From positions 1 through 47,228 of the forward strand of contig JAABSA010000031.1 of assembly GCA_011390635.1 (NCBI GenBank): a stretch of DNA of 47,228 bases, in the 5' to 3' direction. Below the pieces are notes generated by a model. That model saw nothing but the letters and a program-made list of their open reading frames with translations. It was not told where the DNA came from and made no database searches. The translations under genes were made by a program, and so were the position numbers. The DNA is from Desulfotignum sp. Its GTDB lineage: Bacteria > Desulfobacterota > Desulfobacteria > Desulfobacterales > Desulfobacteraceae. Below, piece after piece: positions 288-20,551 of the stretch (position 1 is its first letter; each line of letters opens with the position of its first letter).

Positions 288-1112
288 TTATCTGCCGTAT
301 TTGAACCCGGGCTGCACTTTTATCAGTTGTTTGGTATAGGGATGTTCCGGGTGCCGGATGATGTTGTCCGCCGTGTTGATCTCCACAATATGGCCTTCGT
401 GGATAACCGCAATCCTGTCGCACAGGTATCTGGCAGCCGCCAGGTTATGGGTGATGAACAAAAAGGTCATACCGAAGGTTTCTTTGATTTCCTGGAGCAG
501 CTTGAACAACTGAATGGCAATGGTGGCATCCAGCATGGAAGTGGGTTCATCCGCCACGATAAATTCCGGCTCCACCACTATGGCCCTGGCAATGGCCACC
601 CGCTGGCGCTGACCACCGGAAAGCTGGTGGGGATACCGGTTGTAAAACGCTTTTCCCGGAGACAGCCCCACGGTTTCAAGGGTGTGGATCACCTTTTGCG
701 ATCGGGTTTCAGGGGTTCCGATCTTTTGGACAATCAAAGGCTCCATCACGGTTTCTGCAATGGACAGATGGGGGTTCAGGCTCTGGTAGGGATCCTGGAA
801 AATCATCTGAACCCGGGAACGGTATGCTTTTAAGGCGGATCCTTTAAAATCTCTGATGGGTGCTTTGTTGAACAGAATGTCTCCGGCAGTGGGCTGCTCC
901 AGCCGCACCAGCAGCCTGCCGGTGGTGGTTTTGCCGCTCCCGCTCTGTCCCACCAGCCCGTAGATTTCCCCTGTTTCAATTCCCAGATCAATGCTGTTCA
1001 AGGCCAGGACCCGGTTCTTTTGCCTGGAAAAAAATGTTTTTCTGGGGAAATAGGTTTTGGTCACGCCCTTCATTTCAACCAGCAGCGTTTTTTTAGAATC
1101 AGCCTTTCCCAT
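288..1112 (-). CDS. Oligopeptide/dipeptide ABC importer, second ATPase (OppF/DppF type)
   Basis: This is the cytoplasmic ATPase that, with the neighbouring OppD-type subunit, powers uptake of peptides or related solutes. The 274-residue protein has Walker A GQSGSGKT at 55-62, Q-loop FQDP near 105, ABC signature LSGGQ at 164-168, Walker B IVADEP near 185 and the switch His at 222. The C-terminal HPEHPYT stretch near 253 is the oligopeptide-family (oligo_HPY) tail. I chose the ATG at 1112 because GAGGTGG precedes it. An upstream frame exists but would overlap the oppD-like gene by over 100 bases. As called, it overlaps that gene by 14 bases, so the two are probably translationally coupled. It is the last gene of the operon. 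Substrate cannot be read from the ATPase. Confidence 0.93.
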   Translation of the reverse strand: MGKADSKKTLLVEMKGVTKTYFPRKTFFSRQKNRVLALNSIDLGIETGEIYGLVGQSGSGKTTTGRLLVRLEQPTAGDILFNKAPIRDFKGSALKAYRSRVQMIFQDPYQSLNPHLSIAETVMEPLIVQKIGTPETRSQKVIHTLETVGLSPGKAFYNRYPHQLSGGQRQRVAIARAIVVEPEFIVADEPTSMLDATIAIQLFKLLQEIKETFGMTFLFITHNLAAARYLCDRIAVIHEGHIVEINTADNIIRHPEHPYTKQLIKVQPGFKYGR

Positions 1113-2082
1113 GACCACCTCTGATAACGTCTGGTTCACAGCAAAAGGCCTTGTGGGTGGAAGATATCTGTACCCAGCCCGGTGCCTGTTTTCTGCAGGA
1201 ACCGGAACATACCTTGCAATTGTCGGCAAACCGGCAGGACCCGATATCCGATAAAAGATCCGGGGATTCCTTCATATCCGGAATCACGATATCATTGATA
1301 TTGTCCAACGACAGATAAGAACCCAGGAGGCTGCGGGTATAGGGATGACGGGGAGACCTGAACACCTCTTTTCTGGTGCCTGTTTCCACAATCTGGCCGG
1401 CATACATCACACAGATCTGATCACAGACCGATGCCACCACCGCAATGTCATGGGAAATAAAAATCAGGCCGGTGTGGGTTTTTTCCTGCACGTGTTTGAT
1501 TTCTCTGAGAATCTGATCCTGGACAATGACATCCAGGGCAGTGGTGGGTTCATCCGCAATAATAAGATCCGGATCACAGGCCAGGGCCATGGCAATAACC
1601 ACCCGCTGCTTCATGCCGCCGGAATATTCATGGGGATAATCTTTCATGCGCGCCACCGGGATATCCACCAGATCGAACAAGGCATTCAACCGGTCTGCCA
1701 GATCCGCATCAGACATGTCGGGCTGGTGGGTGATGATGGCCTCTTTGATCTGTTCATCCACCCGGTGCACCGGATTGAGTGCATTCATGGCCGCCTGGAA
1801 TATCATGGCGATTTTCGCCCCCCGCACCTTGCGCCACTGTTTTTCCGTCAGATGAACCAGATCTTCTCCCTGGAATTGAATACTGCCTTTCGGGATCACC
1901 GCATTATCGGGCAGCAGTCCCATCAGGGCCATGCCGATGGTGGTTTTGCCGCACCCGGACTCCCCCACAAACCCTAAAGGTCTGCCCTCTTCAAGATCAA
2001 AACTGATATTGTCCACCGCCTTGAGCAGCCCTTTTTTGGTCTGGTACCCGATGGTCAGGTTCTTTACAGATAAAAGTGTCAT
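1099..2082 (-). CDS. Oligopeptide/dipeptide ABC importer, first ATPase (OppD/DppD type)
   Basis: Cytoplasmic ATPase partner of the OppF-type subunit. The 327-residue protein carries Walker A GESGCGKT at 40-47, signature YSGGMKQR at 153-160, Walker B LIIADEPT near 173-180 and switch His 211. After the HPYTRSLL family tail it has a cysteine-rich end (Cys 283, 289, 292, 296, 314, 315). Cysteines in this position are common in OppD/DppD proteins, and some members bind an iron-sulfur cluster there; whether this one does is inference. The ATG at 2082 is preceded by AAAGGAGGGG inside the end of the permease gene, and only four bases separate the two genes. Confidence 0.93.
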
Positions 2083-2086
2083 GGGC

Positions 2087-2980
2087 TCAGACCTGCCCCT
2101 CCTTTCGCAATCTTGGATCCAGCACTTCGTCCATGGCCCGGCCCAGCATGTAAAACGCCAGGGTCAACAATGAGATACATACCCCCGGCGGTATCAGCCA
2201 GTAGGGTGCCTGAAACATATGACCCGATTTCCAGACCCATTGGAGCATCATTCCCCAGCTCACCTGGCTGGGATCTCCGAACCCCAGAAAGGACAATGCC
2301 GCTTCCACCAGGATGGCGGCAGTCACCCGGAAGGTCATGTACAAAAATGCCAGGGGCAGGACATTGGGCATGATATGCCGGAAAATAATACGCAGATGGG
2401 AGGCCCCGGCCACCCGGGACGCCTCGATAAACGGCCGGTGTTTCAATGACAGGGTCTGGGACCGGATAACGCGGGATACGGCAGGCCACCGCATGATGGC
2501 AATAATGAACACGATGATCCAGATGTTGAACTGACCGAACAAAGAAGCCAAAATCAGCAGGATCACCAGGGAGGGCAGCACCATGATGATATCCGCCGTG
2601 CGCATGAGAAAGGCATCCAGCAGTCCGCCGGTATAACCGGCAACCATGCCCACAAGGGTGCCGATGACAATACTGAAGAATGCTGCGGACAGCCCCACAA
2701 TAAAGGCCACCTTTGCCCCTTCCAGAAGCTGGGCCAGAAGATCACGGCCCACATTGTCCGTGCCCAGCCAGTGGGTGAGGCTGGGTCCCGTGGAAACCCT
2801 GATATCCGGATCGATGCCGGTCATGGGATCATACATGGGATCGATAAGGGGCACAAAAAAAGAGGCAATGGCCATGAACATGAATACCACCAGGATGATG
2901 ATACCGGTTTTGCCCAGGGGATTTTCAATAAAAATCTGCCATCCTTTGTAAAACCGCAGCAGAGAATACTTGTTCAGCAC
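2087..2980 (-). CDS. Oligopeptide ABC importer permease (OppC/DppC type)
   Basis: Inner-membrane permease of the peptide importer, about 297 residues with roughly six hydrophobic segments. It has the N-terminal segment typical of OppC followed by a periplasmic loop containing HWLGTDNVGRDLL, a hallmark of this subfamily. The cytoplasmic EAA loop is visible as EASRVAGASHLRIIFRHIMP, the contact site for the ATPases. No ATG fits. Two GTG codons, at 2986 and 2980, are candidates. The second sits seven bases after AAAGGA and is preferred, while the first is too close to that site. It lies between the OppB-type permease and the OppD-type ATPase in the usual A-B-C-D-F order. Confidence 0.92.
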   Translation of the reverse strand: MLNKYSLLRFYKGWQIFIENPLGKTGIIILVVFMFMAIASFFVPLIDPMYDPMTGIDPDIRVSTGPSLTHWLGTDNVGRDLLAQLLEGAKVAFIVGLSAAFFSIVIGTLVGMVAGYTGGLLDAFLMRTADIIMVLPSLVILLILASLFGQFNIWIIVFIIAIMRWPAVSRVIRSQTLSLKHRPFIEASRVAGASHLRIIFRHIMPNVLPLAFLYMTFRVTAAILVEAALSFLGFGDPSQVSWGMMLQWVWKSGHMFQAPYWLIPPGVCISLLTLAFYMLGRAMDEVLDPRLRKEGQV

Positions 2981-2998
2981 AGACACATCCTTTTTTTA

Positions 2999-3973
2999 CT
3001 AATAGGTGATCCTGGGATCCAGCCAGGCATACAATAGATCCACAATCAGGTTGGCAACCAGCACCACCAGAGCGATGAGCAGAAAACAGGCCTGGGCCAG
3101 GGGATAGTCATTGTTGCTCACCGCAAATATCAATTCTTTGCCGATCCCCGGCCAGGTAAAAATCTGCTCTGTCAGGGCACCGCCGTTGATGGAAAAAGCA
3201 AGGGAAAGTCCCACAGATGTGATTACGGGCAGAGCGGCATTCCGGGCAGCATGTTTGTTTCGGATCACCTTTTCACTCAGTCCCTTTGCCCGGGCCGTAA
3301 TGATATAATCTTCCCTGAGAACCGACAGCATGGATGAGCGCATCAGCAGAAGATAAGAGCCCAGGTTGATGATAAACAGTGTCATCAGCGGCAGCATCAG
3401 GTGATGAAGCACATCCAGAATCCGGACAAATAACGAAGCATTTCCCACCCAGAGTTGTGGAGACAGGACCCCGCCAAGAGGAAACAGCCCCAGCTTGAAT
3501 CCCAGAATCCACAAAAGAAGCAAAGCGAACCAGGGAATAAACAGGGTGTAACACACAAGGGCGGAAATGGACATGACATTATCCAGACGGGATCCTTTAT
3601 GCCAGGCGGCAATTTTGCCCAGAAATATCCCCGCAAATGCCGCCAGGACCGTGGATGTGGTAAACAAAAGGATGGTCCATTTGAGCTTGTCCACGATAAT
3701 ATGGGAAACCGGTTCCCCGTAATGAAAGGAAAAACCGAAACTGCCGGTTACAAAATTTTTCACATAAATAACATATTGCTCCCACAAAGGCCTGTCCAGG
3801 CCCATCTGCTCAATGAGATGGGCCATGTCTTCAGGGGTGAGCATGGGATCCACCATCTTGGATACGGGATCTCCCGGAGACAACCTGAACAAAAAGAACA
3901 GCACGGTCAGAATAATAAAAAAGATAACGGCAACTTCTACCAATTTTACCAGAATATAGATGGGTTTTCTCAT
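2999..3973 (-). CDS. Oligopeptide ABC importer permease (OppB/DppB type)
   Basis: Second inner-membrane permease of the importer, 324 residues. It starts with a membrane helix (VEVAVIFFIILTVLFFLFRL) followed by SPGDPV, the standard OppB/DppB opening. The EAA loop follows as ITARAKGLSEKVIRNKHAAR, and the GGALTEQIFTWPGIGKEL stretch near the end is also characteristic. The ATG at 3973 begins the conserved N-terminus; a longer frame to 4063 only adds residues overlapping the binding-protein gene and has no family support. The gap to the upstream lipoprotein stop is 23 bases, consistent with one transcript. Confidence 0.92.
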   Translation of the reverse strand: MRKPIYILVKLVEVAVIFFIILTVLFFLFRLSPGDPVSKMVDPMLTPEDMAHLIEQMGLDRPLWEQYVIYVKNFVTGSFGFSFHYGEPVSHIIVDKLKWTILLFTTSTVLAAFAGIFLGKIAAWHKGSRLDNVMSISALVCYTLFIPWFALLLLWILGFKLGLFPLGGVLSPQLWVGNASLFVRILDVLHHLMLPLMTLFIINLGSYLLLMRSSMLSVLREDYIITARAKGLSEKVIRNKHAARNAALPVITSVGLSLAFSINGGALTEQIFTWPGIGKELIFAVSNNDYPLAQACFLLIALVVLVANLIVDLLYAWLDPRITY

Positions 3974-3996
3974 TTTATCCCACAGATTTCCCGTAT

Positions 3997-5754
3997 CTAT
4001 TTTACCGGTTTGATCATGCACAGAGACCAGATACTGCCGATGCCGTCCACCTTTTCCACCCATCCGCTAAAGCGTTTGTTAACCGTGGCCTCAATGATAT
4101 GGGGATTATACAAAGGATAATAGGGCACATCTTCTAAAATCATTTCCTGCATGGTCCAGATCATCTGTTTTCGTTTTGCCACATCCACCATCAGCCGCTG
4201 GGCCTGGGCCAGTGTGTCAAACTCCGGGTTCCGATATCCACTCATGTTCCAGTCCCTGGGATTATCGTTTTCGGAGGAAAAAAAAGATCCCAGGTAATCG
4301 GGGTCCAGATCCAGCTTGCCATATCCCAAAACAAAGGCATCAAAATCGTGTTTTCCCTTCACCGTTTCCAGAAGAGAATTAAAGGACATGGGCCTGGCAA
4401 ATGCCGGAATTCCCAGCTGCCTGAGCCATTCCTGGATCATGGTGCCGGCGAAGGCGCGCTTGGGATCATAATCCGCCGGCGGGGTCAGAATAACAAATTT
4501 TGCCATTGCCTCTCCGGAGGGCAGCAGAATATCCGATGGTTTGGCCAGGGTACCATCGTCATTCACCGGCGGCACTTTCCAGGAATAACCGGCATCCTTA
4601 AGCATCTGCCAGGCCGCCTTTATACGCTGCTCCTGGTCCAGGCCGTCGCCGTATTTTCTGACATTGGGATTATGCCAGAAGTGGTTACCCGAAGGTATAA
4701 TGGAATGCATGGGGTTGCCGTGATCCTGGAGAATACGGTTGAGGATGAATTGTTTGTCCACCACCGTTGCCACAGCCTGGCGCAGGATTTTATCATCAAA
4801 AGGGGGCCTGCGCAGATTGAACCCCAGGTAGTAGAGGGCGCTTTTTTTGTTAAAATGCAGGTCAATGCCGGTGTTTTCTTCCAGATCCTTGATATAGCCG
4901 GGCTGTACATCCCACCAGTAATAATCGATATCCCCTTTTTTCAACGCCAGGATGGCCACATCAGAAGTTCCGTAAATAGTAAACAAAAGATTGTCCACAT
5001 AAGGGCCCAGATCAAGGCCGGCTATGGTTTTGCCCTGCCCGAAAAAATAGGGGTTTTTCGTCATGTGGAGATAGGCGCCTTTCTGGTATTCATGGAGTAT
5101 GAAAGGACCTGTTCCCAAGGGTTTTTCCACCTGATAATCCTGGAGGAAGCGCAGGGGCTTTTCCGTTGCCAGGGCATCTTTGGCCACCTGTTCCCACTCT
5201 TTTTTAGATACCATGGGGGCGGTCATGATCCGGGACATGAAAATAGCGGAAGGTTCTTTTAAATAAAATACCACGGTATGGGCATCAGGGGCCTCCACTT
5301 TTTCGATGAGTTGCCATTTGCTGTAGTACCGGGGAATTTTGAAATCAAAAAACAGCTGCTTTGTAAACAGCACATCTTCACTGGTAAAATCGGATCCGTC
5401 GGACCATTTGGCATCCCGCAGTTTGATGGTATAGGACAGGGCTTTTTCATCAAAGACTGCATCTTCTTCTGCCAGCCAGGGAATAATCTCCAGGGTCTTT
5501 GGATGGCGGTGGAACAAGGGCTGATAGATCTGTGACAGGATGTTGCGGGAGTTGCCGTCGGTGGCAAGCCAGATGTTCAGGGACCTGGGTTCTTCCGGCA
5601 GCCCTATTTTTAAAAACACACTCTCTTCGGATTTCTGGCATGACAACAGACCCCCTGTTATCACCATCAAAAAAACGGCCGGCAGCAGCAGTCTGCTTAC
5701 CTTTTTAGACCATCTGCTGAATTGGTTCTTTTTTGTTTTCTGAATTTGCTGCAC
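3997..5754 (-). CDS. Peptide-type ABC importer solute-binding lipoprotein (SBP family 5, OppA-like)
   Basis: Periplasmic receptor of the importer, about 585 residues. The N-terminus has a long basic region, a hydrophobic core and a lipobox ending LLSC (Cys 39 from the chosen start), so it should be a lipid-anchored lipoprotein. The mature part shows family-5 landmarks: EPRSLNIW, SYTIKLRDAKWSDGSDFTSEDVLFT, and GTGPFILHEYQKG. The start is a GTG at 5754, seven bases after an AGGAG site; a TTG further upstream lacks a good site. It overlaps the 3' end of the GshB-like gene by about 50 bases, which suggests translational coupling. The ligand is unknown. Family members bind di- and oligopeptides, nickel chelates or opines, so peptide is only the default guess. 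Confidence 0.9.
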   Translation of the reverse strand: MQQIQKTKKNQFSRWSKKVSRLLLPAVFLMVITGGLLSCQKSEESVFLKIGLPEEPRSLNIWLATDGNSRNILSQIYQPLFHRHPKTLEIIPWLAEEDAVFDEKALSYTIKLRDAKWSDGSDFTSEDVLFTKQLFFDFKIPRYYSKWQLIEKVEAPDAHTVVFYLKEPSAIFMSRIMTAPMVSKKEWEQVAKDALATEKPLRFLQDYQVEKPLGTGPFILHEYQKGAYLHMTKNPYFFGQGKTIAGLDLGPYVDNLLFTIYGTSDVAILALKKGDIDYYWWDVQPGYIKDLEENTGIDLHFNKKSALYYLGFNLRRPPFDDKILRQAVATVVDKQFILNRILQDHGNPMHSIIPSGNHFWHNPNVRKYGDGLDQEQRIKAAWQMLKDAGYSWKVPPVNDDGTLAKPSDILLPSGEAMAKFVILTPPADYDPKRAFAGTMIQEWLRQLGIPAFARPMSFNSLLETVKGKHDFDAFVLGYGKLDLDPDYLGSFFSSENDNPRDWNMSGYRNPEFDTLAQAQRLMVDVAKRKQMIWTMQEMILEDVPYYPLYNPHIIEATVNKRFSGWVEKVDGIGSIWSLCMIKPVK

Positions 5755-6727
5755 TGATTTTCTCCTCAATAAAGTCCACCACACGTTTTTCAAGTCTCTG
5801 GTTGTTGAACTGGTTAATTCGCGGGATTCCGCCGGGACTGACGCAATTGACTTCCACCAGCTTGTCTCCTATGATATCAATCCCCACAAAGTACAGACCG
5901 TCCTGCCGCAATTTGGGCTTGATGCGCCGGCAAAGGGCTTTTTGGGCCGGGGTAATCTCATGCCTGAAAGCCAGTGCACCGGCATGGACATTGGTGCGGA
6001 AATCACCGGACACGGATCTGCGGCCCATGGCACCCAGAATTTCCCCATCCAGCAGAAGAATGCGCACATCCCCTTCTTCCCTGACCTGTTGTAAATATTC
6101 CTGAACCATGATGGGCCGGCGCTCAGGATAGGGTTTGCCCGCCTTGACATAGTAGTTGATCAGGGAATTGAGATTTTCCTGGTCCTGGTTGCTGACCTTG
6201 ATCACCCCGTGGCCCCCGTGGCCATGCAGGGGTTTGATGACCATGGCACCGCCGAAATCATCAATGATCTTCTTCAGACGGTACGGATCCCTGGACACAT
6301 GGGTTTCTGGAATGATGTCCGGAAAATTGAGAATATAGGCTTTGCTGCTGCCGTTGAGCTGGCCCAGGGTACTGTTTACCAGAAACACCTGATCACTTAC
6401 AGGACCTAAAAATTCCAGCACCTCATAATTGATGGGCGGGTTTTTTCGCAAAAACAGAACATCCAGGTCTGTCACTGTTTCAAATATCAATTCTTCTTTG
6501 TCCAGACAATGGAGGAGATCCGTCCAGTAGGCCTGGATGGAATGATTTTTCGCCACCGAAATACGGCGCATTCTGGCCACCACTTCATTTTTGCGGACAT
6601 AAATATCATGGGGTTCGAGGAAAAAAACCTCATGATCCCGCTGGTTGCACTCATACATGATATGGGCAGTGGTGTCCCAGACCGGGTCGATCTGCCGTAA
6701 ATCATCCATTAAAAATGCGATTTCCAT
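5705..6727 (-). CDS. gshB: GshB-like ATP-grasp ligase (glutathione synthetase family)
   Basis: ATP-grasp enzyme of 340 residues, close to the length of bacterial glutathione synthetase, which joins gamma-glutamylcysteine and glycine. The N-terminal GshB domain (IAFLMDDL at 3-10, FLEPHDIYV, LDVLFLRKNPP) and the ATP-grasp core (VIKPLHGHGGHGV at 163-175, VGIDIIGDKLVEVNCVSPGG at 281-300) are all present. The segment at 239-251 (VSGDFRTNVHAGA) differs from what I recall of E. coli GshB and resembles the RimK-type motif, so the true substrate may differ. No gamma-glutamylcysteine ligase gene is in the window. It is the first gene of the importer operon and overlaps the binding-protein gene, an unusual pairing. 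A sigma-70-like promoter lies upstream. Confidence 0.75.
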   Translation of the reverse strand: MEIAFLMDDLRQIDPVWDTTAHIMYECNQRDHEVFFLEPHDIYVRKNEVVARMRRISVAKNHSIQAYWTDLLHCLDKEELIFETVTDLDVLFLRKNPPINYEVLEFLGPVSDQVFLVNSTLGQLNGSSKAYILNFPDIIPETHVSRDPYRLKKIIDDFGGAMVIKPLHGHGGHGVIKVSNQDQENLNSLINYYVKAGKPYPERRPIMVQEYLQQVREEGDVRILLLDGEILGAMGRRSVSGDFRTNVHAGALAFRHEITPAQKALCRRIKPKLRQDGLYFVGIDIIGDKLVEVNCVSPGGIPRINQFNNQRLEKRVVDFIEEKISAANSENKKEPIQQMV

Positions 6728-6820: not shown

Positions 6821-6923
6821 ACCCTTATGTAATTTTAACGAAAGACAAGACAAAGGCTTTTGATTTGTGTATCATTGTTATTCAGGCTGTATGTACCACC
6901 TACCAAACACCCGGAGGATAATC

Positions 6924-8156
6924 ATGGGAGACACCCTTTTCATACAATTTTATAATAAGACGCACAGCGGCTGGTTTGACCTGTGCAACGGCTTTTCAGA
7001 TACCTGGGACCTGTGCCGCAGCAAAGGGGAGTTTCTGTGGATACCCCTTGATCTGGATACAGACCGGTGGTATGACGAGAGCGCTTATACCCGGATTCCG
7101 CTTCCCATCCAAAAAGGCACCGTATATGTAAGTGCCAGTTACGTGAACCAGTTGTACCAGGCTTTTTTATGGGCCATCCAGTATCCGGACATCACCTTTA
7201 TCGCAGGCGGACCTGTGACCTCGGAACGGTATTGTGCAGAACCGGGCTGGCATTCGGTGCATTTCAAGGTGGAACAACCGCTGCCGGCCAATCTGGTTTT
7301 AACGGGCCAAAGTGTTGAATCCCTGTTTGGAGTTCCCGAATTTTCCGGCAGGTGGCACCTGGAAGTACCCGCCCAGATCCCGGAAAACAGCCGGATCTAT
7401 TTTTCCTATACCCTTGAAAACCAATGCTATTGGAAAAAATGTCCTTTTTGTTCCATTGCCCAGCATTCTTCCGACCATTTCAGAAAACGCAAGGTTCTGG
7501 ATCTGGCCTTTACAGACCTGGATTACGCCGGACATAAAATTGTCCGGCTCAACACCGGGTCCATGACCCCGGAGCATATCCGAAGCATTCTGCCCCTTTT
7601 ACCCGTAACCCCGGATATGGAATACCGTTTTTTCATGCGGGCTGCGGCAGCAGAAACCCGGGCCATGGAAGCGGCGGTGTCCAAAATGCAGGGACAGATT
7701 CCCGACTGCACCCTGGGATTCGGCATTGAATTTCCTTCAGACCGCATGTGGCAGTATCTTAACAAGGGCACCCGCATGGAAGAGGTAATAAAAACCCTTG
7801 CATTCTGCACAAAAACCGGTTTCAAAGTCAATGCCAATGTGATTTTAGGCTGGAACAACCTGGTGGAACAGGACCTGACTGATCTGGAAGGATTCATGGA
7901 AAACCTGTCCGCAGACACTGTCACCACCCTTCAGCTGCGTTGGCTGTTTGCCCATCCCTATACCAAAATTTACGAAACCTATGAAGGAGTGGAAAACAGT
8001 ATCCGGCTGGGTCCCTTTAACTGCGGGTTCAATGTCAGGGTGAGCCCGGAGCAGCAAGAATTGAACCAGCGGGCCGCAAAAATCATTAAAAGATACTGTG
8101 ACAAAAAGGGCATTACCCTGCAGGGGTACAAAAACCTGGAAAAGGGGTTGTCGTGA
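6924..8156 (+). CDS. Radical SAM protein with B12-binding-like N-terminus
   Basis: A 410-residue protein with a central cysteine cluster CYWKKCPFC (Cys 168, 173, 176) expected to hold the [4Fe-4S] cluster that cleaves S-adenosylmethionine. The spacing is CX4CX2C rather than the canonical CX3CX2C. The N-terminal 130 residues resemble a cobalamin-binding Rossmann fold (VYVSASYVNQ, then FIAGGPVTSERY at 92-103), but the DXHXXG cobalamin motif is not evident. Downstream, FGIEFPSDRMWQYLNKGT and NANVILGWNNL fit the radical SAM barrel. ATG 6924 follows CGGAGGATAATC. It is divergent from the ligase/importer operon. Such proteins modify peptides, RNA or small molecules; the substrate here is not readable. 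Confidence 0.75.
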   Translation: MGDTLFIQFYNKTHSGWFDLCNGFSDTWDLCRSKGEFLWIPLDLDTDRWYDESAYTRIPLPIQKGTVYVSASYVNQLYQAFLWAIQYPDITFIAGGPVTSERYCAEPGWHSVHFKVEQPLPANLVLTGQSVESLFGVPEFSGRWHLEVPAQIPENSRIYFSYTLENQCYWKKCPFCSIAQHSSDHFRKRKVLDLAFTDLDYAGHKIVRLNTGSMTPEHIRSILPLLPVTPDMEYRFFMRAAAAETRAMEAAVSKMQGQIPDCTLGFGIEFPSDRMWQYLNKGTRMEEVIKTLAFCTKTGFKVNANVILGWNNLVEQDLTDLEGFMENLSADTVTTLQLRWLFAHPYTKIYETYEGVENSIRLGPFNCGFNVRVSPEQQELNQRAAKIIKRYCDKKGITLQGYKNLEKGLS

Positions 8157-8247
8157 CCTCCTGATTGTAAAACACCTGCACTGTCGTCTTTCCGGTGCCT
8201 TGTTTAATGACGAAAAAAAAGACAGTTACCTTGGGGGAGACCCGATA

Positions 8248-9684
8248 ATGTTCATCAAAAAAAGCAAAAATAACGGAGTCCGTGAAATTCTGATAATGGG
8301 GATTTTCTGGCGCATCCTTTTCATTGAGGCCGTTCTTCTGGTATATTCTCTTGTGTACCGGTGGCTGGCAGAAGATGCGGGACCGGCCGATCTTTTCTGG
8401 TATGCCGTACGAATCATGGTGCTGGTGGGTATTATCATTGTCTTTATGGTGGTAAGTTTAAAACAGTTTCTTACCAAAAAAATCATAGACCCGCTGGAAC
8501 ACATCGCCTTGGCCAACAAGGCCATTGAAAATGATTTTTCCCAAAAAGACGCCATAGCGCTGCCTCCGGATACTCCTGATGAAATCACAACCATTGTCAC
8601 CACCAGGGCCGCCATGCTCAAACGCATCATCCAGGTATCTGATGAACGGCTCAAGCTGGTAAATTTTATCAAAGAAACCTTTGGACGGTATCTTTCCACA
8701 AAAGTGGTGGAAGAAATTCTTTCCTCCACCCGGGGCCGGCAGATCGGCGGCACCCGCAAAACAGTGACCGTACTGATGGCGGATTTGCGGGGATTTACCA
8801 CGCTTTCTGAATCACGGGACCCGGAAGAAATGGTGCAGCTGCTCAACCGGTATCTCAAAAGAATGTCCGCCATTATCCTGGCATATGACGGCATTATCGA
8901 TGAAATCATCGGGGATGCCATCCTGGCGGTGTTTGGTGCACTTGAACCCCATGAAAATGATCCGGAACGGGCCATTGCCTGTGCACTGGGAATGCAGAAC
9001 TGCCTGGTCAGGCTCAATGAAGAAATCACGGCTGAAGGATACCCGGCCCTTGAAATGGGCATCGGCATCAACACAGGCAGTGTGATTGTGGGAAATATCG
9101 GATCGGAACTGCGCATGAAATACGGCATTGTCGGAGATGCGGTGAACCGGGTGGCAAGGATCGAAGCCAACAGCATAGGCGGCCAGGTCCTCATTGGTGA
9201 GTCCACCTGTAAAGCTGTCCATGCCCTTTTGAAAACAGATCCTCCCAAAACCACAATGATGAAAGGCTTGAAAAAACCCCTGGTTTTTTATGCGGTATAT
9301 GCCATTGAAATGGATGGTAAACACATTGCCCTGGAGGTACCCACCACATCAGGCCCTTTGCTGGATATCCAGATACCGGTGCAATGCTGGGTCATCCAGG
9401 ACAAAAAACTTGGGTCCATCCCCATAGCCGGCACGAGCGTTTCCATGGATGAAAACAAGATCAATATCCAGACCAGGATCCCTGTTGAACCGCTGACTGA
9501 TGTGAAGCTTAATTTTTCTTTCTGCCTGGAAGCCCATTGTTTTGATGATATCTATGCCAAATGCATTGCCATGGAACCTGCGGGCGCCGGCCGGGACAGT
9601 CACCTTTGTCAGCTGCATATAACCGCCATGGAGGAAAAGGACCGGGCCATTATCAGACAATGGATGGCAGAAGCAGCTGCCTGA
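8248..9684 (+). CDS. Membrane class III nucleotidyl cyclase with PilZ-like C-terminus
   Basis: Predicted to make a cyclic nucleotide from ATP or GTP at the inner membrane. The 478 residues contain two membrane helices (about 17-37 and 50-71), a HAMP-like linker (80-130) and a class III catalytic domain (about 170-352). The two metal aspartates are D179 (VLMADLRGFTTLSE) and D223 (EIIGDAILAVFG); the transition-state pair is N300 and R304 (VNRVARIE). E219 sits where adenylate cyclases usually have Lys, and G293 where they have Asp or Thr, so ATP specificity is not assured. Residues 362-470 look like a degenerate PilZ domain. ATG 8248 follows GGGGGAG. Two genes downstream lies a cyclic-nucleotide-binding protein, a plausible receptor for the product. 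Confidence 0.85.
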   Translation: MFIKKSKNNGVREILIMGIFWRILFIEAVLLVYSLVYRWLAEDAGPADLFWYAVRIMVLVGIIIVFMVVSLKQFLTKKIIDPLEHIALANKAIENDFSQKDAIALPPDTPDEITTIVTTRAAMLKRIIQVSDERLKLVNFIKETFGRYLSTKVVEEILSSTRGRQIGGTRKTVTVLMADLRGFTTLSESRDPEEMVQLLNRYLKRMSAIILAYDGIIDEIIGDAILAVFGALEPHENDPERAIACALGMQNCLVRLNEEITAEGYPALEMGIGINTGSVIVGNIGSELRMKYGIVGDAVNRVARIEANSIGGQVLIGESTCKAVHALLKTDPPKTTMMKGLKKPLVFYAVYAIEMDGKHIALEVPTTSGPLLDIQIPVQCWVIQDKKLGSIPIAGTSVSMDENKINIQTRIPVEPLTDVKLNFSFCLEAHCFDDIYAKCIAMEPAGAGRDSHLCQLHITAMEEKDRAIIRQWMAEAAA

Positions 9685-9809: not shown

Positions 9810-10667
9810 ATGGGAAACACATTACGCCTGAAATTATTATCCCTTGACATGCTCAAACCAGTATTGTGGTGCATCTGGATACTGTTCCTCTGCCAGATAT
9901 GGCTGGTACAGACCGGTCATGGCCGGGAAAATCAGATCACCAATCACCTGGGTATGACCTTTATCCGGGTTCCACCCGGCACCTTCCAGATGGGAAGCCC
10001 TGACTCCGAAGAACACCGGACAACCAATGAGACACAGCACCTGGTTCATATCAGAAAACCATTTTATCTCCAGCAAACAGAGGTGACCCTGGAACAATGG
10101 CGGGCGGTGATGGGAAAAAGCTGGTTTATCAGACGAAAAGGATCTGACCAGACACCGGTGACCCGGGTCTCTTTTTATGATGTCCAGAAATTTATCAGAA
10201 AACTCAACAAAACAGACAGCGCCCGATACCGGCTTCCTTCGGAAGCGGAATGGGAATATGCCTGCCGGGCCGGCACCACCACCGCATACTTCTGGGGAAA
10301 TGACATAGACTGTTCCAAGGCCATGTATGCCAACAACCCAAAAAAATTGTGCGATTGCTGTGGGTATTACCGGTCTGCGGGGCTGCCTGTAGATGGTCCT
10401 GCCCCGGTAGGTTCCTTTTCCCCCAATCCCTGGGGATTTTATGACATGCACGGCAATGTCTGGGAGTGGTGTGCTGATGAATATACCGATGACATACGCA
10501 CCCCCGGAGTCAACACCTATGATATTTTCTCCTCCAGACCCAGGGTGCGCCGCGGCGGCAGCTGGTACAAGTATGGCCAGTTCCTCAGAAGCGCCAACCG
10601 CACCTATGCCCATCCCGGCGCCAGATTCCAGACCACGGGATTCAGACTGGTCCTTGAGACAGAATAA
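9810..10667 (+). CDS. Exported FGE/SUMF-like (formylglycine-generating-enzyme family) protein
   Basis: A 285-residue protein with an N-terminal hydrophobic segment (about 17-32) acting as signal peptide or anchor, followed by an FGE-sulfatase domain. Landmarks are GMTFIRVPPGTFQMGSPDSE, the TEVTLEQWRAVMG stretch, YRLPSEAEWEYACRAGTTT, GFYDMHGNVWEWCADEY and the terminal RGGSWY...TTGFRLV. True sulfatase-activating enzymes need a specific cysteine pair near the C-terminus. Here the final segment ends SANRTYAHPGARFQTTGF without Cys, so it more likely belongs to the non-catalytic or serine/threonine-kinase-linked branch. ATG 9810 follows AAAAAGGA. Its stop overlaps the next start by one base, so the two are co-translated. 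Confidence 0.85.
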   Translation: MGNTLRLKLLSLDMLKPVLWCIWILFLCQIWLVQTGHGRENQITNHLGMTFIRVPPGTFQMGSPDSEEHRTTNETQHLVHIRKPFYLQQTEVTLEQWRAVMGKSWFIRRKGSDQTPVTRVSFYDVQKFIRKLNKTDSARYRLPSEAEWEYACRAGTTTAYFWGNDIDCSKAMYANNPKKLCDCCGYYRSAGLPVDGPAPVGSFSPNPWGFYDMHGNVWEWCADEYTDDIRTPGVNTYDIFSSRPRVRRGGSWYKYGQFLRSANRTYAHPGARFQTTGFRLVLETE

Positions 10668-13600: not shown

Positions 13601-13882
13601 ATTGACGGCAAGGTATCGGTGATCATGGAGAAAGAAAACGGCAAAGAGGAACACATCGACCAGATGACATCAGGCAGCGCCTTTGGTGAAATGGCTTTGA
13701 TTGATGATTCCCCCCGGTCCGCCACCATCCGGACCATGACCCCCTGCCGCTTTCTCATCCTCCACAAACAGGAATTCAAGGAAACCGCCATGGAATTTCC
13801 ACGCATAGCCCTGCAGATCTGCTCGGTTCTCAGCCGGCGGATCAGGCATCTGCACTCTCTGGTTCAGGATAAAGAGTGCTGA
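10667..13882 (+). CDS. Nucleotide-translocase-like membrane protein fused to HEAT repeats and a cyclic-nucleotide-binding domain
   Basis: A 1071-residue fusion. Residues 1 to about 425 are a polytopic membrane domain with about 11-12 hydrophobic helices, resembling the MFS/ATP-ADP translocase (NTT) superfamily. Residues about 440-900 are helical HEAT-like repeats (for example HKEVRMAALDALS). Residues 935-1071 form a CRP-type cyclic-nucleotide-binding domain, with the phosphate-binding cassette FGEMALIDDSPRSATI keeping the ribose Glu (about E1008) and phosphate Arg (about R1017). It should therefore bind cAMP or cGMP. The start overlaps the preceding stop (TAATG). With a cyclase two genes upstream, this is a likely ligand-regulated membrane effector. 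Transport activity is unproven; known relatives of this fusion are mostly uncharacterised. Confidence 0.85.
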   Translation: MRAKLLDLLKIYEEEISLFLWTAAILFIIRSSGIILNNYAETAFLKRFGVEFLPMVNMLNAVATFFITGLLAAFLSRTSGARLLFYIFIFSGVFVTAIRLLIPMGFNLLYPLLFMLKSQLELLQALLFWNMCNDLFNTRQSKRLFPLLTAGGVIGLILGSFGTPYFARLFSMDNLLYLYLVTTIIGALMIQAMGRSYATLIFTEKTGTSGKKNPAMIEEIKRVYPLVKDSILVKIVLVLTFMPNVVIPIMNYQFNYAVNEQFASESAMIQFFGNFRAVLYIISLFILLFVGRIYGRWGLPVALMFHPFNYMLAFMAFLLRFDVISAIYAKMSTNILRTTINGPANSILIGLFPESYRDMIRPFLRGTVVRLALFTGSSLILISTPLFHPRYLTLVALPFLIAWVAAPFVLKANYSKILLDMISRNLLDIKSLDQKELGQIFNQEKTLSDLETSFLAARGEDALWYARLLKNFSADRLDQLILKNLDNQDENTQVALIKMISPEAGSRAARELVSYLSPHRHETTIAILKLIIRHGIQAVNPSDFSNYTNSSHPVVRGFACACRYADQPESLQKYIDDWLSHTDTTFRQSGIICAGLSGYQEYIPRLQALLKEPEIDPFIPDIIRALSRLQAETGHSAALSYLDHNHKEVRMAALDALSITNDDTLKKAIHLLGDPSDTTHDFALEKIKAADYQNNLLLVESLALPSTRIRRGLFKLLETLDIKEFDVLLFAKKNLSKAYEYLAMAQSLENLPQGGMQNLAMEHLEGKKEIILENILKVLAIHDQTKRMKSAWQGIFSSDTRQRANAIELLNDVLDNKTFKIMLPLLESPNPSMALTEGRKLTKIPAFDTEKKLAVSNLLSSADWVDVIIGLGIVREIPDISINQDLLYNLKQSDNQHILKEVDMIWNKNKKSGETKGEDSSPKLSLGEKILLLKEIEIFSGLSASELAAIAGVTEEMAYAQDKDVITQNGVGETVFLIIDGKVSVIMEKENGKEEHIDQMTSGSAFGEMALIDDSPRSATIRTMTPCRFLILHKQEFKETAMEFPRIALQICSVLSRRIRHLHSLVQDKEC

Positions 13883-14026
13883 AAAAATTCTACAGACCTC
13901 CCAAGGCGGGAAACCAGCAACCCAATTGCCCCTTCTTATTTTCTTGTTTTTTGACAGGAACTGAGGAGTAAGGCACTAAAGTCCTCCCCGAAAATACAAT
14001 TTCCGGTCGATCAGTTTTTTCATTTT
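13883..14026. other. Convergent intergenic spacer, nothing clear
   Basis: This 144-base spacer separates the convergent ends of the translocase/HEAT/cyclic-nucleotide gene and the PP-loop gene. It has GC-rich blocks (CCTCCCAAGGCGGG; a GGAG...TCC pairing near 13965-13985) but no clean terminator stem with a T tract and no riboswitch I recognise. Confidence 0.4.
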
Positions 14027-15163
14027 TCAGCTGTCCGCTTTTTGTAAAAGTGATGCAATGGTGCGGGCAAGATCATCCCGCCCCTGTTCTTTGAGCAGGG
14101 GAATCAGGGGCCGGTAAAAAGGGGGCCGCACCCGGATGGTGATGTCAAACCGGGATATATCCGCCGGGGTGATCTCATCTGCTTCAAAGGCACGGGTTTT
14201 GTGCAGCAGACCCAGGGCGGTAAGCTCGGTCATGGTCCGTACACATTTTTCACATTTGCCGCAATTGAGCTGGTCCGGAACATTGGCCAGGCACACCCGG
14301 AAATTCTGGAAAGCGGTATCCCATTGGGATACAATCCTGATTTTTTCCAGGCGGGATAATTCATAATCCCGGTGACGGATTCTCATGCCATAGCTGGAGT
14401 ATTCCGGATCCAGTAACGGATGGGAACCGCAGGGGTGCAGATGGGGGATATCATAGGATGAGGCGATGAACATCAGATTGATCCGGCTGCTGAACCCATG
14501 GGCCATGGCAGCCAGCACCGCACCAAAAAAACTGTCCAGCCACAGCGCCCGGTCATCGCACAGATGACGGATATTGGTGTACACCGGCACAAGACTGGTA
14601 CCGGCATCCTGTGTAATGCGGGAAACAGCGGTCATGGCCCGGTCAAACACATGAAATTTTGCCCCCCGTTCCACCACACCGCCGATATCAAACCCATGGA
14701 GAAAAAAACTGTCCCGGACATAGGCCGGATGGGTGTCAGGATAATGCAGCCGATTCTGACGCAGGGCAGCCAGAGAATCCATACCCCCGGACATGACCAT
14801 GCCCGCCCCCGCCCCGTGCTGTGCCGGCGGATCCTGGTGTTTTCGGACACGAGATTCTACGGGAATGGGAACATACCGCCCCTGTGTCCAGTGGGAGAGA
14901 ATATGCATGGCCACATGCACCCCCTCTTTGAGAAACGGACAGACGGCGCCTTCCAAAAAAATACGCTTTTCCCCCAGATGCAGGGCCGGCAGCAGACACC
15001 CCACCAGGAATGCATCCGGGTTGGCATCAAATCCCCGGGCATATTCCACCGGGGTCTTGATATAAACATCTTTCCCAGGATGATCGCTTTGTTCAAAACT
15101 GACCCTGGCAGAGGCAATGGCAAAATCGCTGTCCTGTGTCAACTGTATATCGGTGATTTTCAT
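14027..15163 (-). CDS. PP-loop ATP pyrophosphatase-like protein with Cys-rich knuckle
   Basis: A 378-residue protein with the PP-loop SGGMDS at 125-130, used by N-type ATP pyrophosphatases such as QueC and asparagine synthetase to adenylate a carboxylate or carbonyl. A zinc-knuckle-like CGKCEKC (Cys 301, 304, 307) follows near the C-terminus, in the context LNCGKCEKCVRTMTEL. The N-terminal 110 residues show no family I recognise. It is the third gene of a tight operon; its ATG overlaps the ATP-grasp stop by four bases. In this setting it may activate and amidate the ligase product, but that is inference. It is not QueC by length, N-terminus or context. Confidence 0.75.
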   Translation of the reverse strand: MKITDIQLTQDSDFAIASARVSFEQSDHPGKDVYIKTPVEYARGFDANPDAFLVGCLLPALHLGEKRIFLEGAVCPFLKEGVHVAMHILSHWTQGRYVPIPVESRVRKHQDPPAQHGAGAGMVMSGGMDSLAALRQNRLHYPDTHPAYVRDSFFLHGFDIGGVVERGAKFHVFDRAMTAVSRITQDAGTSLVPVYTNIRHLCDDRALWLDSFFGAVLAAMAHGFSSRINLMFIASSYDIPHLHPCGSHPLLDPEYSSYGMRIRHRDYELSRLEKIRIVSQWDTAFQNFRVCLANVPDQLNCGKCEKCVRTMTELTALGLLHKTRAFEADEITPADISRFDITIRVRPPFYRPLIPLLKEQGRDDLARTIASLLQKADS

Positions 15164-16086
15164 AGGCTGTGTTTTTTCATACCTGATTGAGATTTTTCTG
15201 CCTTAGACAGCACATGGGCAATGATTTTTTGGGCAATATCTTTTCCAGTGGCAGCTTCCAACCCCCTGAAGCCCGGGGAATAATTCACCTCCACCACATG
15301 GGGAAGGCCCCCTTTTTCCACCATCATATCAATGCCGGCAATATCCAGAGAGCAGACCCTGGCAGCTGAAACAGCCATCTCCGCCCACGCTTCAGGCGGA
15401 TCAAAACCCCTGGCCTGTCCATTTTGATGGATATTGGTCCTGAAATCATTTGATGCCGGTATCAGCTGCATGGCACCGGCCACCCGGCCTCCGATCACCA
15501 GAATCCTGGCATCCACCCGTCCTCCTGGCGGAAAAAACCGCTGCACCACGAGCCCCTTTACCGGATCAAGCAGGTTTGCAACACATTTTTTTGCCCCGGA
15601 TCTGTCATCGATTTTCACCACCCCGTCACCCCCCATGCCAAAGGGCTGTTTGACAACGACCGGGTATCCGCCCAACTGGTCAACAGCAGCAAAAAAACTG
15701 TCGGATCTGGTGACAAAACAGGAGTCCGGAACCCGAATCCCTTCCGCTGACAGGGTCTGAAGGGTGACAAACTGATGCCGGGCAATGGTTACCCCTTCCA
15801 ACCCGTTTACCAAAGGGATACCCATTGCCTGGAACTGGCGCAGCACCACAAACCCGTATTCACCCATGGGTGATCCCTGGCGGGGCAAAACAACATCCGG
15901 CAAAGCATCTGAAACAGCGCTGTCAGCAAAAACGCCTCCCATGCCGGGATGCTGTTTTTCCAGCGAACAGATAACCTGGTAAGGGTTGATGAGCTGGATC
16001 CGATGTCCGGCCTTTTGGGCAGCGGTCTTCAGCCGGCCGTTGGGATGAAAGGCAAAACCGTGAATGGTGAGAATACCAATGTTCAT
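15160..16086 (-). CDS. RimK-like ATP-grasp ligase
   Basis: A 308-residue ATP-grasp enzyme that should form an amide or peptide bond through an acyl-phosphate. Nucleotide-binding motifs are VVKQPFGMGGDGVVKI at 144-159, the metal/ATP segment VDARILVIGGRVAGAM at 191-206, and VVEVNYSPGF at 264-273. The block ASNDFRTNIHQNG (211-223) matches the RimK/LysX family motif, and HxxxLQTLSAEGIRVP near 104-120 also fits. RimK-type enzymes add Glu or other amino acids to peptides, proteins or small acceptors. It overlaps both neighbours by four bases, so the three proteins are made in concert. The acceptor and donor are unknown. Confidence 0.82.
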   Translation of the reverse strand: MNIGILTIHGFAFHPNGRLKTAAQKAGHRIQLINPYQVICSLEKQHPGMGGVFADSAVSDALPDVVLPRQGSPMGEYGFVVLRQFQAMGIPLVNGLEGVTIARHQFVTLQTLSAEGIRVPDSCFVTRSDSFFAAVDQLGGYPVVVKQPFGMGGDGVVKIDDRSGAKKCVANLLDPVKGLVVQRFFPPGGRVDARILVIGGRVAGAMQLIPASNDFRTNIHQNGQARGFDPPEAWAEMAVSAARVCSLDIAGIDMMVEKGGLPHVVEVNYSPGFRGLEAATGKDIAQKIIAHVLSKAEKSQSGMKKHSL

Positions 16087-17339
16087 GGGGGATTATCTTT
16101 TTGATTCACGGCATCATCTGCGTTGTTTTCCAATGTGGAAATCATCTGTTCCGGCATCCAGACACCCATTTGTTTATTTGCTTTTTCACTGAAATAGGTG
16201 GTAATTTTTTTGGTATTATTGCGCAGGGCAATTTTCTGGGTGGCCAGGTTATCTTCGGCGATCAAAGAAAACACCTCATATTTTCCAGCCCTTGCGGTCA
16301 ATCCTTCCAAAAGCTTTCTGCCCACTCCCAGGGACCGGTATTCAGGCCGCACCGAGGTATATCCCCGTTCCACAAATCCGGAAAAATCCAGATCTGTTGC
16401 TATTTTCAGACGGTCTATCAAGGCCTTCCTGGGATGTTTGAGGCAGGAGTTTCCCACCATCACCCCATTTTCCACAGCATATCCGATCAGATAGGCTTTT
16501 TCAAGGTTGGAGCGGACATGGGCCAGGTCCACCGATCCGCCTGCCGCAACCATGGCGCAGACCGTATCCAGATATCCTTTCGGCAGATCTGCCGGCGGTG
16601 TAAAATGATAGGCAATATCTTGGCCCAGGGTAAGTAGATCAGTGCCATGGTACCGCAGCCGGATCAGGTGATCCACAGGGAACCTTGACAGACATGCCAG
16701 CAGCCTCTCAGACGTTCCCAGAAGTTCCCAGACCGGCCTGCCCGGCAGGGGGGCTGCCATGTCATAGGCGCTGTAAACCGGCACATCATTTTCGGGGATA
16801 TCATATGAATGCACTAAGTGGGGGTTGTCCATAATACATTTTACAGCAGGTCCGGCAGGACTGTTCGCCAGAGATGCCGGGACTGTTACATGGTTCCATA
16901 TGCCTTGCCTGGAAACCTGCCACAATAGTTGATCCGGTATCTTTGCCAGTTCCGGCGCACATTGCCAATGGATCAGTTTCAACCCCTTTTCCTGCCACCC
17001 GGCCAGCTGATTTTTCCCAACCGGTTTTTGGGACGGCCCCAGACCGGCTGTGATCCCGAATACCATGGATGCCGGTTTTTCTGCCAGCCATCGGGACAGA
17101 CGGACCATACAGGAAAACACATCCGGGGCTGCCCCCCTGGATGCCGCAGCCTGGAAAAAAAACCCGGCTGCATCCATGTATTCCTGCTGATGCAAATGCC
17201 GGAACAATGCATCCTGGTCTTTGAATGCAAAAAGATCCTTTGTGAATATCTGTCCGAATGCATTGTCATGGACCAGATCTGTAAAAGTGATGCTGCTGTT
17301 TTCTGCTCCAGCGGTCAATGGGTTATGCGCATTATTCAT
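16083..17339 (-). CDS. GNAT-family acyltransferase with unknown N-terminal domain
   Basis: First gene of the three-gene operon, 418 residues from the ATG at 17339. The C-terminal 170 residues are a GNAT fold: VRPEYRSLGVGRKLLEGL (about 330-347) is the acetyl-CoA pyrophosphate-binding loop (RxxGxG), followed by FSLIAEDNLATQKIALRNN, the usual fold end. The N-terminal 230 residues are not recognised; they contain TDLVHDNAFGQIFTKDLFAF and KPASMVFGITAGLGPSQ. A longer start, a GTG at 17396, is possible but would add 19 residues of unlikely composition. The four-base overlap with the ATP-grasp gene ties them functionally. It probably acylates an amino group made or used by the ligase; substrate unknown. 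Confidence 0.75.
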   Translation of the reverse strand: MNNAHNPLTAGAENSSITFTDLVHDNAFGQIFTKDLFAFKDQDALFRHLHQQEYMDAAGFFFQAAASRGAAPDVFSCMVRLSRWLAEKPASMVFGITAGLGPSQKPVGKNQLAGWQEKGLKLIHWQCAPELAKIPDQLLWQVSRQGIWNHVTVPASLANSPAGPAVKCIMDNPHLVHSYDIPENDVPVYSAYDMAAPLPGRPVWELLGTSERLLACLSRFPVDHLIRLRYHGTDLLTLGQDIAYHFTPPADLPKGYLDTVCAMVAAGGSVDLAHVRSNLEKAYLIGYAVENGVMVGNSCLKHPRKALIDRLKIATDLDFSGFVERGYTSVRPEYRSLGVGRKLLEGLTARAGKYEVFSLIAEDNLATQKIALRNNTKKITTYFSEKANKQMGVWMPEQMISTLENNADDAVNQKDNPP

Positions 17340-17444: not shown

Positions 17445-17474
17445 GTGCATGGCCAACAAGAAAAGTCTTATTGC

Positions 17475-17513
17475 AACAGAAACGGCCGGACTGTTTATCC
17501 GGCCGTTTCTGTT
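17475..17513 (-). terminator. Strong hairpin terminator after the protease gene
   Basis: A perfect 16-base-pair stem (17475-17490 with 17498-17513) with core GGCCGGA closes a 7-base loop. The arm ends are A- and T-rich on both strands; the plus strand continues in TTTTT, and the minus strand ends TTTCTGTT. It lies 26 bases beyond the protease stop and before the start of the GNAT operon, so it most likely ends the protease transcript. Confidence 0.8.
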
Positions 17514-17538
17514 TTTATGAGATTACTGCGGCAATATG

Positions 17539-20274: not shown

Positions 20275-20322
20275 GATCTTCTCCTGATATGTTGCTGATT
20301 TATGTGTGCAGACAATAGTGAG

Positions 20323-20338
20323 AGCAGGATATGTGCCA
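20323..20338 (-). promoter_or_regulatory. Sigma-54 (-24/-12) promoter of the secreted protease
   Basis: Read on the minus strand the site is TGGCACATATCCTGCT. The -24 GG and -12 GC have the required 10-base gap, and only one core base differs from TGGCAC-N5-TTGCT. Transcription would begin near 20312, about 38 bases before the protease ATG. If real, the gene requires an RpoN activator. Confidence 0.6.
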
Positions 20339-20551
20339 GACGAAATCAAACAGCCGGGAATACCTTCTGGCAAAGCTTTGCAAAAAACATAGACCCGGAT
20401 CAGAAAAAAACAGGATCGGTCTGGTATTGAAATTACACCGGTCTGACGACATATCACAGGGTGCATTGGCCCGGGCAGCGCCGGAAAATAGCGGCACCCA
20501 TTTACAATGGACTTATGGATACTTATTTTGTTACAAAAAGGAGGGCCTGCA

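Follow-up and report, generated by a model that had tools for sequence, protein, structure and literature searches.

A conserved GNAT, RimK-type ligase and QueC-like PP-loop operon in Desulfotignum and its relatives, tentatively read as the core of a peptide-like metabolite module

What might be made by three overlapping genes of a Desulfotignum genome whose products should acylate an amine, form an amide bond and adenylate a substrate? These genes occupy positions 14027-17339, on the minus strand, of a 47,228-nucleotide stretch of DNA (contig JAABSA010000031.1 of assembly GCA_011390635.1, hereafter the window), which is one contig of a 4.09 Mb genome, presumably of a sulfate reducer, and encode a GNAT protein, a RimK-type ATP-grasp ligase and a PP-loop protein, here labelled PPL. 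Synthesis of N-acetylglutaminylglutamine amide (NAGGN), an osmolyte, likewise combines GNAT, ATP-grasp and PP-loop amidation, and a preliminary description of the window had compared the trio to it. Present results confirm the trio as a real, conserved operon and place it in a larger co-inherited unit together with a GshB-like ATP-grasp ligase (GSHS) and an ATP/ADP-translocase-like membrane protein (ATPtransl). The conserved operon, this co-inheritance and the signature motifs of the enzymes are the basis for a tentative reading, held with somewhat less than even confidence, in which the trio is the core of a module that ligates, N-acylates and amidates a small peptide-like metabolite.

The four-base overlaps first described between the three genes are exact, with ATGA at both junctions, and the motifs named for them are present, RxxGxG as RSLGVG in the GNAT protein (16320-16337), and SGGMDS and CGKCEKC (14243-14263) in PPL. 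Far from never co-occurring elsewhere, the three genes recur widely across related loci. Relatives were sampled by scanning named genomes with two peptide patterns from the conserved core of PPL, a procedure biased toward close relatives. Among the best 80 of 87 loci, most are titled Desulfobacterales, Desulfobacteraceae or Deltaproteobacteria, with further representatives in Desulfohalobiaceae, Deferrisomatales, Geothermobacter and one Thermoflexales; PPL is carried by the named isolates Desulfocicer vacuolatum DSM 3385, Desulfosarcina widdelii PP31 and Geothermobacter hydrogeniphilus HR-1. Every one of these loci with all three genes (60/60) has them in the order GNAT-RimK-PPL on one strand, with a GNAT-RimK gap of at most 30 bases in 48/60 and a RimK-PPL gap of at most 60 bases in 49/60, and in two loci (L095 and L102) the GNAT gene stands 3.8-3.9 kb apart from the rest of the trio. 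Where at least 3.5 kb upstream of PPL could be seen (54 loci), both GNAT and RimK were present in 46, GNAT only in four (L119, L121, L123 and L125), RimK only in two and neither in two. In an even draw of 395 genomes across the phylum, a PPL-type match was found in 13, nine strong (E<1e-50) and four weak.

All three genes are under purifying selection, with dN/dS of 0.12-0.27 (NG86, three congeners per gene, nine comparisons), the values being 0.12-0.15 for PPL, 0.22-0.27 for RimK and 0.25 for GNAT. The distance matrices of the three proteins are also correlated in a mirror-tree test of 59 of the 80 loci (PPL-RimK r=0.90, PPL-GNAT 0.76, RimK-GNAT 0.79, none reached in 999 permutations), although shared species history alone could yield such correlations.

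The larger unit was defined in 39 related genomes, including that of the window, with cut-offs of E<=0.001 for PPL, E<=0.01 for GNAT and E<=1e-60 for GSHS and ATPtransl. PPL was found in 17 genomes, GNAT in 16, GSHS in 17 and ATPtransl in 17, with all four together in one set of 16 genomes. Two genomes depart from this pattern: G033 has two PPL genes and none of the other three, and the fragmented genome G023 has GSHS and ATPtransl only. Because 11 more of the 16 carriers belong to the genus of the window genome, a test by genus is fairer: all five genera with the trio lie inside the six genera, of 27, with GSHS (hypergeometric P=7e-5), genera still being not fully independent. The trio is therefore a real conserved operon, as first described, but not the whole unit, since GSHS and ATPtransl are co-inherited with it and RimK is sometimes absent.

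Gene order in other lineages brings the same genes together: ATPtransl-GNAT-PPL-GSHS in G262, ATPtransl-GNAT-PPL with a divergent GSHS in G303 and G343, and GNAT-PPL-GSHS in Deferrisomatales. In G341 the order is GSHS-FGase-GNAT-RimK-PPL, FGase being an N-formylglutamate-amidohydrolase-like enzyme present in a few lineages; members of its family are further found close to the trio or to GNAT-PPL in G016, G303 and L125. No GNAT was found in G309 or G404, where ATPtransl is immediately followed by a PPL cousin (28-29% identical) and, in G309, next by a radical SAM gene; the link between PPL and ATPtransl thus persists without the trio.

The chemistries first proposed for the trio, acylation, amide-bond ligation and adenylation, are judged the likely ones. 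The ATP-grasp protein proved to be of RimK type, as first described, matching PF08443 (E=3e-29) and scoring above the cut-off of the RimK subfamily model TIGR00768 (161.6 against 143.4 bits), and its closest solved structures by sequence are the RimK structures 5zct and 4iwx. It falls far below the cut-off of the S6 L-glutamate ligase equivalog PRK10446 (143 against 331 bits). Its conserved VEVNYSPGF stretch is presumably a metal site.

The PP-loop protein is read as a QueC-like protein forming its own family, because it keeps the loop and cysteines of QueC, lacks its catalytic motifs, scores below cut-off and has no PDB match at E<=0.001. It matches no Pfam or NCBIfam family above cut-off, the nearest relevant one being QueC (PF06508) at 12.6 against 22 bits. 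PPL was compared in an alignment of 38 homologues (the rows left out of a 43-row set include L021 and two rows of L041) with 12 QueC controls from the same order, out of 15 loci of which three without a usable frame were left out. SGGxDS is present in 37/38 PPL and 12/12 local QueC, and C-x9-C-x2-C-x2-C, a metal site by prediction from sequence, in 38/38 and 9/12. The QueC catalytic motifs YxQxHxxE, VPxRN and YPDC, taken from PMC13329287, occur in 9, 12 and 12 of the 12 local QueC and in 0/38 PPL each, and the cysteine spacing of x8 printed there occurs in 0/38 PPL and 0/12 local QueC. PPL differs from QueC further in about 120 residues ahead of the loop. QueC itself was accordingly rejected as the identity of PPL, the motifs being absent and the score under the PF06508 cut-off, which supports the preliminary description on this point.

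The AlphaFold2 model of PPL is confident (pLDDT 92, pTM 0.91), and its weak Foldseek matches include 2dum, 3vrh, YcfA, and GMP synthetase, NAD synthetase and asparagine synthetase chains, several of which we take to be PP-loop or UspA-type folds. Sequence searches of the PDB with PPL, GNAT and their profiles gave a best E of 0.28. Amide or nitrile formation is predicted for PPL, by ATP-pyrophosphatase activity and ammonia transfer. A full-length canonical QueC match occurs in only 4/16 carriers, and in 13/23 of the other genomes; there is therefore no sign of a link to preQ0, and a supply of 7-deazaguanine is not common among carriers, QueD and QueE not having been searched.

The QueC superfamily has clusters that include QatC, Cap9, LarE and WbpG, according to PMC13329287. 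Protein modification, unlikely though serious, is the strongest rival explanation, since both RimK and certain relatives of QueC have proteins as substrates and the search for substrate genes covered only those of at least 90 aa. In this explanation RimK adds amino acids to a protein, the GNAT caps it, and PPL acts on a protein terminus as has been proposed for QatC and Cap9. Membership of the RimK family by the TIGR00768 cut-off agrees with it, as do the repurposing of QueC-like enzymes for protein modification described in PMC13329287, and a His-Pro pair, listed there for QatC, which is found in 38/38 PPL and is absent from 12/12 local QueC. The other QatC features speak against it, as the zinc pattern C-x19-CGxCxxRR and the motif D-x4-R-x7-WxR are found in 0/38 PPL, there being no QatC sequence as positive control. 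Nor was any recurrent extra substrate gene seen among operon open reading frames (ORFs) of at least 90 aa, shorter ones not being searched; the scarcity of QueC among carriers also argues against it. A known defence system was considered and rejected, since neither the trio nor GSHS has a PADLOC match (E<=0.01), which again disfavours protein modification of the QatC kind.

The comparison with NAGGN synthesis stood in its logic and failed as an identity of pathway. The NAGGN trio (TIGR03103/TIGR03104) resembles the module in bringing GNAT, ATP-grasp and PP-loop amidation chemistry into one locus, whereas the module has separate genes, a RimK-type ATP-grasp, an additional GshB-like ligase and a QueC-like PP-loop protein without a glutaminase domain. 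A divergent NAGGN pathway is highly improbable: it would in principle use the same reactions, the window ATP-grasp has a low score against the model for NAGGN synthetase (25.2 bits, cut-off 569) and the genome of the window has no TIGR03104 gene above cut-off, but PPL has no match to a NAGGN amidotransferase in NCBIfam above cut-off, and genuine TIGR03104 genes, situated outside the trio operon, occur in 18/39 relatives, including 11 of the 16 carriers. The module is therefore not generally a replacement for NAGGN synthesis.

The GNAT gene had been described as an acetyltransferase alone, which proved incomplete, because its protein also carries a dead radical-SAM-type domain. Assignment to GNAT is carried by the RxxGxG/A acyl-CoA motif and by Pfam and fold matches of homologues. 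The window protein itself scores just under the Pfam cut-off (19.0 against 20.7 bits), its homologues in L039 (29.9 bits) and L088 (21.4 bits) score above it and those in L036 and L037 below, and the model of the long L088 homologue matches GNAT chains over about 170 columns in Foldseek. Of 64 GNAT loci, 56 have a frame that no contig end truncates. Its length exceeds 520 aa in 26 loci (among them L119, where a spurious frame enlarges it), lies at 241-520 aa in 16 and is at most 240 aa in 14, these last having the GNAT domain nearly alone. An apparent TLC-GNAT fusion in Deferrisomatales (a 1649-aa ORF at 3001-7950 of L119) was rejected as this spurious frame of high-GC DNA, mostly off-frame.

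A profile of the long N-terminal part of the GNAT proteins (A9) also finds proteins outside the family in relatives, mostly of 500-550 aa and with E from 2e-14 upward. From 13 such loci (L201-L213) the correct protein was recovered in four, which alone were used for comparison with A9. These four carry CX4CX2C (CYWxxCxFC), three are above the cut-off of Pfam Radical_SAM and the fourth just under, and three have B12-binding matches below cut-off. A9 aligns with them in hhalign at 99.2% probability (E=1e-19, 376 columns), which gives it homology to radical SAM proteins. The cluster motif CX3-5CX2C is absent from 23/23 aligned GNAT proteins, four of them short forms, and Pfam recognised GNAT in a scan of the 23, with neither a radical SAM nor a B12 match. 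A search of plasmids with the L088 protein (tblastn) gave one weak match, E=9e-3, to a gene annotated as radical SAM. In the confident L088 model (pLDDT 86.6) strands and helices alternate, as would fit a Rossmann-like part plus a partial barrel, and the barrel rests on sequence and secondary structure, because the listed Foldseek matches mostly cover the GNAT domain. The preferred view of the N-terminal part is that of a radical SAM fold that lacks the cluster, is trimmed or lost in some lineages, and serves as a scaffold or is a relic. A9 did not match the radical SAM protein of the window, that of L222 or four proteins of B12-binding loci in the window's own genome (E<=10), and a kinship between the radical SAM genes of the window and L222 was rejected, their similarity being confined to the cysteine motif.

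The co-inherited ligase GSHS has E. coli GshB as a close relative (1gsa, E=4e-33) yet scores just under the glutathione synthetase cut-off (PRK05246, 269.2 against 272 bits). The GshB pathway would be expected to include a glutamate-cysteine ligase, but in the 16 carriers the two types searched, GCS2 (PF04107) and Glu_cys_ligase (PF04262), were each found in 0/16; PF04107 is present in 3/39 genomes and PF04262 in 0/39, and 14 control genomes gave five and two positives. GSHS is therefore probably not making glutathione. The same combination of a GshB-like ligase and no GshA of these types fits a module of sulfur chemistry, in which PPL of these sulfidogenic bacteria would use sulfide or persulfide in place of ammonia to form a thiocarboxylate, thioamide or thiol and, with GSHS, a low-molecular-weight thiol. 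Also in keeping with this explanation, which is quite improbable, are the weak fold match of PPL to 3vrh (ph0300; probability 0.54), which we take to be TtuA, and a DsrE-like gene ahead of RimK-PPL in L109. The carriers, however, include Geothermobacter, which is not known as a sulfate reducer, and the cysteines of PPL follow the zinc-binding pattern of QueC and not the three-cysteine pattern of LarE given in PMC13329287. L109 itself has a Cytochrome_cB-family fragment beside the DsrE-like protein ahead of RimK-PPL (2301-3167), with two cyclase-like genes after PPL.

Plasmids hold more distant relatives of PPL, in 12 records of which five were opened, with 22-39% identity to the window PPL. 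Polysaccharide-type genes (glycosyltransferases and polysaccharide pyruvyl transferases) lie near the PPL cousin in plasmids of Nostoc, Gloeothece, Azospirillum and Gemmobacter, ATP-grasp and GNAT genes follow it in that of Gemmobacter, and an ATP-grasp gene adjoins it in that of Halorientalis. Four of the five opened records thus favour decoration of a surface glycan or lipid, in which PPL would amidate or amidinate a sugar carboxylate or N-acetyl group, in the manner of WbpG, and the ligases would add amino acids. A glycosyltransferase near the second PPL-like gene of G213 (L227) is in line with this, and WbpG-like sugar amidotransferases are members of the QueC superfamily according to PMC13329287. 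Its probability is nevertheless small, given the low identity of the plasmid cousins and the recurrent neighbours identified in Desulfobacterota loci, which are others, most ORFs without a homologue in the window not having been identified. Carriage by phages or viruses was rejected, as PPL has no match in phages and none was confirmed in viral contigs.

Under the preferred reading, ligation, N-acylation and amidation of a small peptide-like metabolite, GSHS and the RimK-like ligase would join amino-acid-like units through acyl phosphates, and the GNAT would cap a free amine with an acyl group from an acyl-CoA. PPL would activate a carboxylate as an adenylate on its SGGxDS loop and, being without a glutaminase domain, would transfer free ammonia to the adenylate, as in the first half-reaction of QueC, to give an amide. 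In a few lineages the acyl group could be taken off or recycled by the N-formylglutamate-amidohydrolase-like enzyme. Transport of the product or of its components may fall to the Opp and translocase-like proteins, and the cyclase and the cNMP-binding domain suggest control by cyclic nucleotides. The units that are joined, whether the GNAT acts first, and ammonia as against sulfide on PPL are what we infer.

Several observations weigh against this reading. The substrate, product and activity of the module are all predicted, and an osmolyte role for the product, suggested by analogy, is weakened by the coexistence with NAGGN genes. Ligases of the RimK family also modify proteins, according to PMC4431377. 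Profile comparison gives a weak homology between PPL and QueC (hhalign E=0.0014, probability 17%), though in register at the loop and cysteines, and Foldseek of the PPL model found no PDB chain at E<=0.001. Distant PPL cousins in L224-L227 (two from G130, one from G068 and the second of G213) have no GNAT, RimK or ATPtransl in the fetched stretches, L133 and L138 hold PPL relatives but neither GNAT nor RimK, and the tandem PPL copies of G033 stand without GNAT, GSHS or ATPtransl matches. The polysaccharide genes near plasmid cousins point to other substrates, and the search for GshA in the carriers covered the two families above.

Related operons are known. ATP-grasp peptide ligases of the R2K clade are linked to GNATs, with acyl-capped peptide products proposed, in what was available of PMC4431377; they belong to another ATP-grasp clade and to other taxa, with no PP-loop partner mentioned in that portion. 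Three of the four components QueC-like, PP-loop, ATP-grasp and GNAT are treated, in other systems, in PMC2922099. In titles and abstract beginnings of the open-licence literature no description of this gene set was found; the amidoligase survey of Iyer et al. 2009, outside that scope, may hold similar ones. What is rated as new here is one unnamed PP-loop family and an unusual domain history, within a known kind of ATP-grasp/GNAT peptide-ligase operon.

Features of the window are given in Table 1. Among 42 loci with at least 3.5 kb on each side of PPL inside the fetched flanks, 39 have a homologue of at least one window neighbour. The most frequent is ATPtransl (31 loci), followed by the FGE-domain gene (27), GSHS and the cyclase (20 each), oppA (12) and the radical SAM gene (5); neighbours without a window homologue were scanned for families in chosen cases. 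A paralogue of the cyclase-type gene overlaps or follows PPL in several relatives.

Table 1. Positions of the trio, its motifs and its neighbours in the window.
Feature	Position	Strand	Remarks
opp-type peptide ABC transporter genes	288..5793	-	occasional neighbours, counted by oppA; family-library scan made of the oppA product only
GSHS, GshB-like ATP-grasp ligase, 340 aa	5705..6727	-	co-inherited with the trio
Radical-SAM-like protein	6867..8156	+	CX4CX2C; weak NCBIfam B12/radical-SAM matches, none in Pfam; occasional neighbour
Adenylate/guanylate cyclase-type protein	8098..9684	+	frequent neighbour
FGE-sulfatase-domain protein	9810..10667	+	frequent neighbour
ATPtransl, 1071 aa	10667..13882	+	TLC ATP/ADP-translocase-like membrane domain, HEAT and cNMP-binding domain; co-inherited with the trio
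PPL, QueC-like PP-loop protein, 378 aa	14027..15163	-	SGGMDS and C-x9-C-x2-C-x2-C site
Four-cysteine site of PPL (C291, C301, C304, C307)	14243..14293	-	invariant in 38/38 aligned homologues
SGGMDS, PP-loop (ATP pyrophosphatase) motif of PPL	14774..14791	-	sequence motif
RimK-type ATP-grasp ligase, 308 aa	15160..16086	-	Pfam/NCBIfam; conserved VEVNYSPGF stretch
GNAT protein, 418 aa	16083..17339	-	ATG start, upstream GTG at 17396 possible; C-terminal acetyltransferase with RSLGVG, N-terminal radical-SAM-type remnant
Pseudo-radical-SAM remnant within the GNAT gene	16791..17234	-	profile A9 positions 290-432, E=5e-24
Hairpin, 17 pairs	17475..17513		RNA fold of 17455-17525, z -9.7; between the papain-like gene and the trio

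ATPtransl is unusual in joining, within one protein, a TLC-like membrane domain to HEAT repeats and to a cNMP-binding domain at the C-terminus, and a second copy is present in G008, G011, G014 and G031. Several PPL loci have features of their own: in G033 the two tandem paralogues (41-43% identical) adjoin a sugar-transfer-associated ATP-grasp protein (L041, 8264-12314), in G009 PPL is split into two frames by an assembly error or as a decaying copy (L040, 2858-3977), and in G068 a distant PPL cousin adjoins a frame with both Mur-ligase and peptidyl-tRNA hydrolase domains (L226, 8772-10631).

Upstream of the trio, at 17539-20466, lies a papain-like (C1) peptidase gene with PKD domains, its product probably secreted, which adjoins the trio in some congeners only. 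As a member of the operon it was rejected; it probably lies outside the unit, because the strong hairpin separates it from the trio and several congeners (L027 and L035) have the trio without it alongside. The hairpin appears terminator-like; a promoter and terminator pattern scan, whose sites were no more numerous than in shuffles, did not list it, and an Rfam search gave no match. In L031 (G008) a histidine kinase, a response regulator and an HD-GYP response regulator lie upstream of GNAT (11201-15988), the last overlapping GNAT by four bases; gene sizes and overlap are the same in L032 and L034, domains having been scanned in L031 only. The operon is therefore tied to signalling in some congeners.

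A more specific and distinctly unlikely proposal is that Desulfobacterota have a new class of small metabolite, resembling a cofactor or a thiol, which GSHS and the RimK-like ligase would build. It would be capped by the GNAT, itself grown out of a radical SAM enzyme whose dead barrel is now a substrate scaffold, finished by PPL as an amide, a nitrile or with sulfur, and set in level by cyclic nucleotides through ATPtransl. If the preferred reading is right, many Desulfobacterota, sulfate reducers included, would make a hitherto undescribed metabolite by a co-inherited pathway that has no family name, and a QueC-like family outside PF06508 would gain its first function. There would also be a case of a radical-SAM fold that was kept after losing its cluster and is gradually disappearing next to a GNAT domain, and a GshB-like ligase would have a role in bacteria without a detected GshA.

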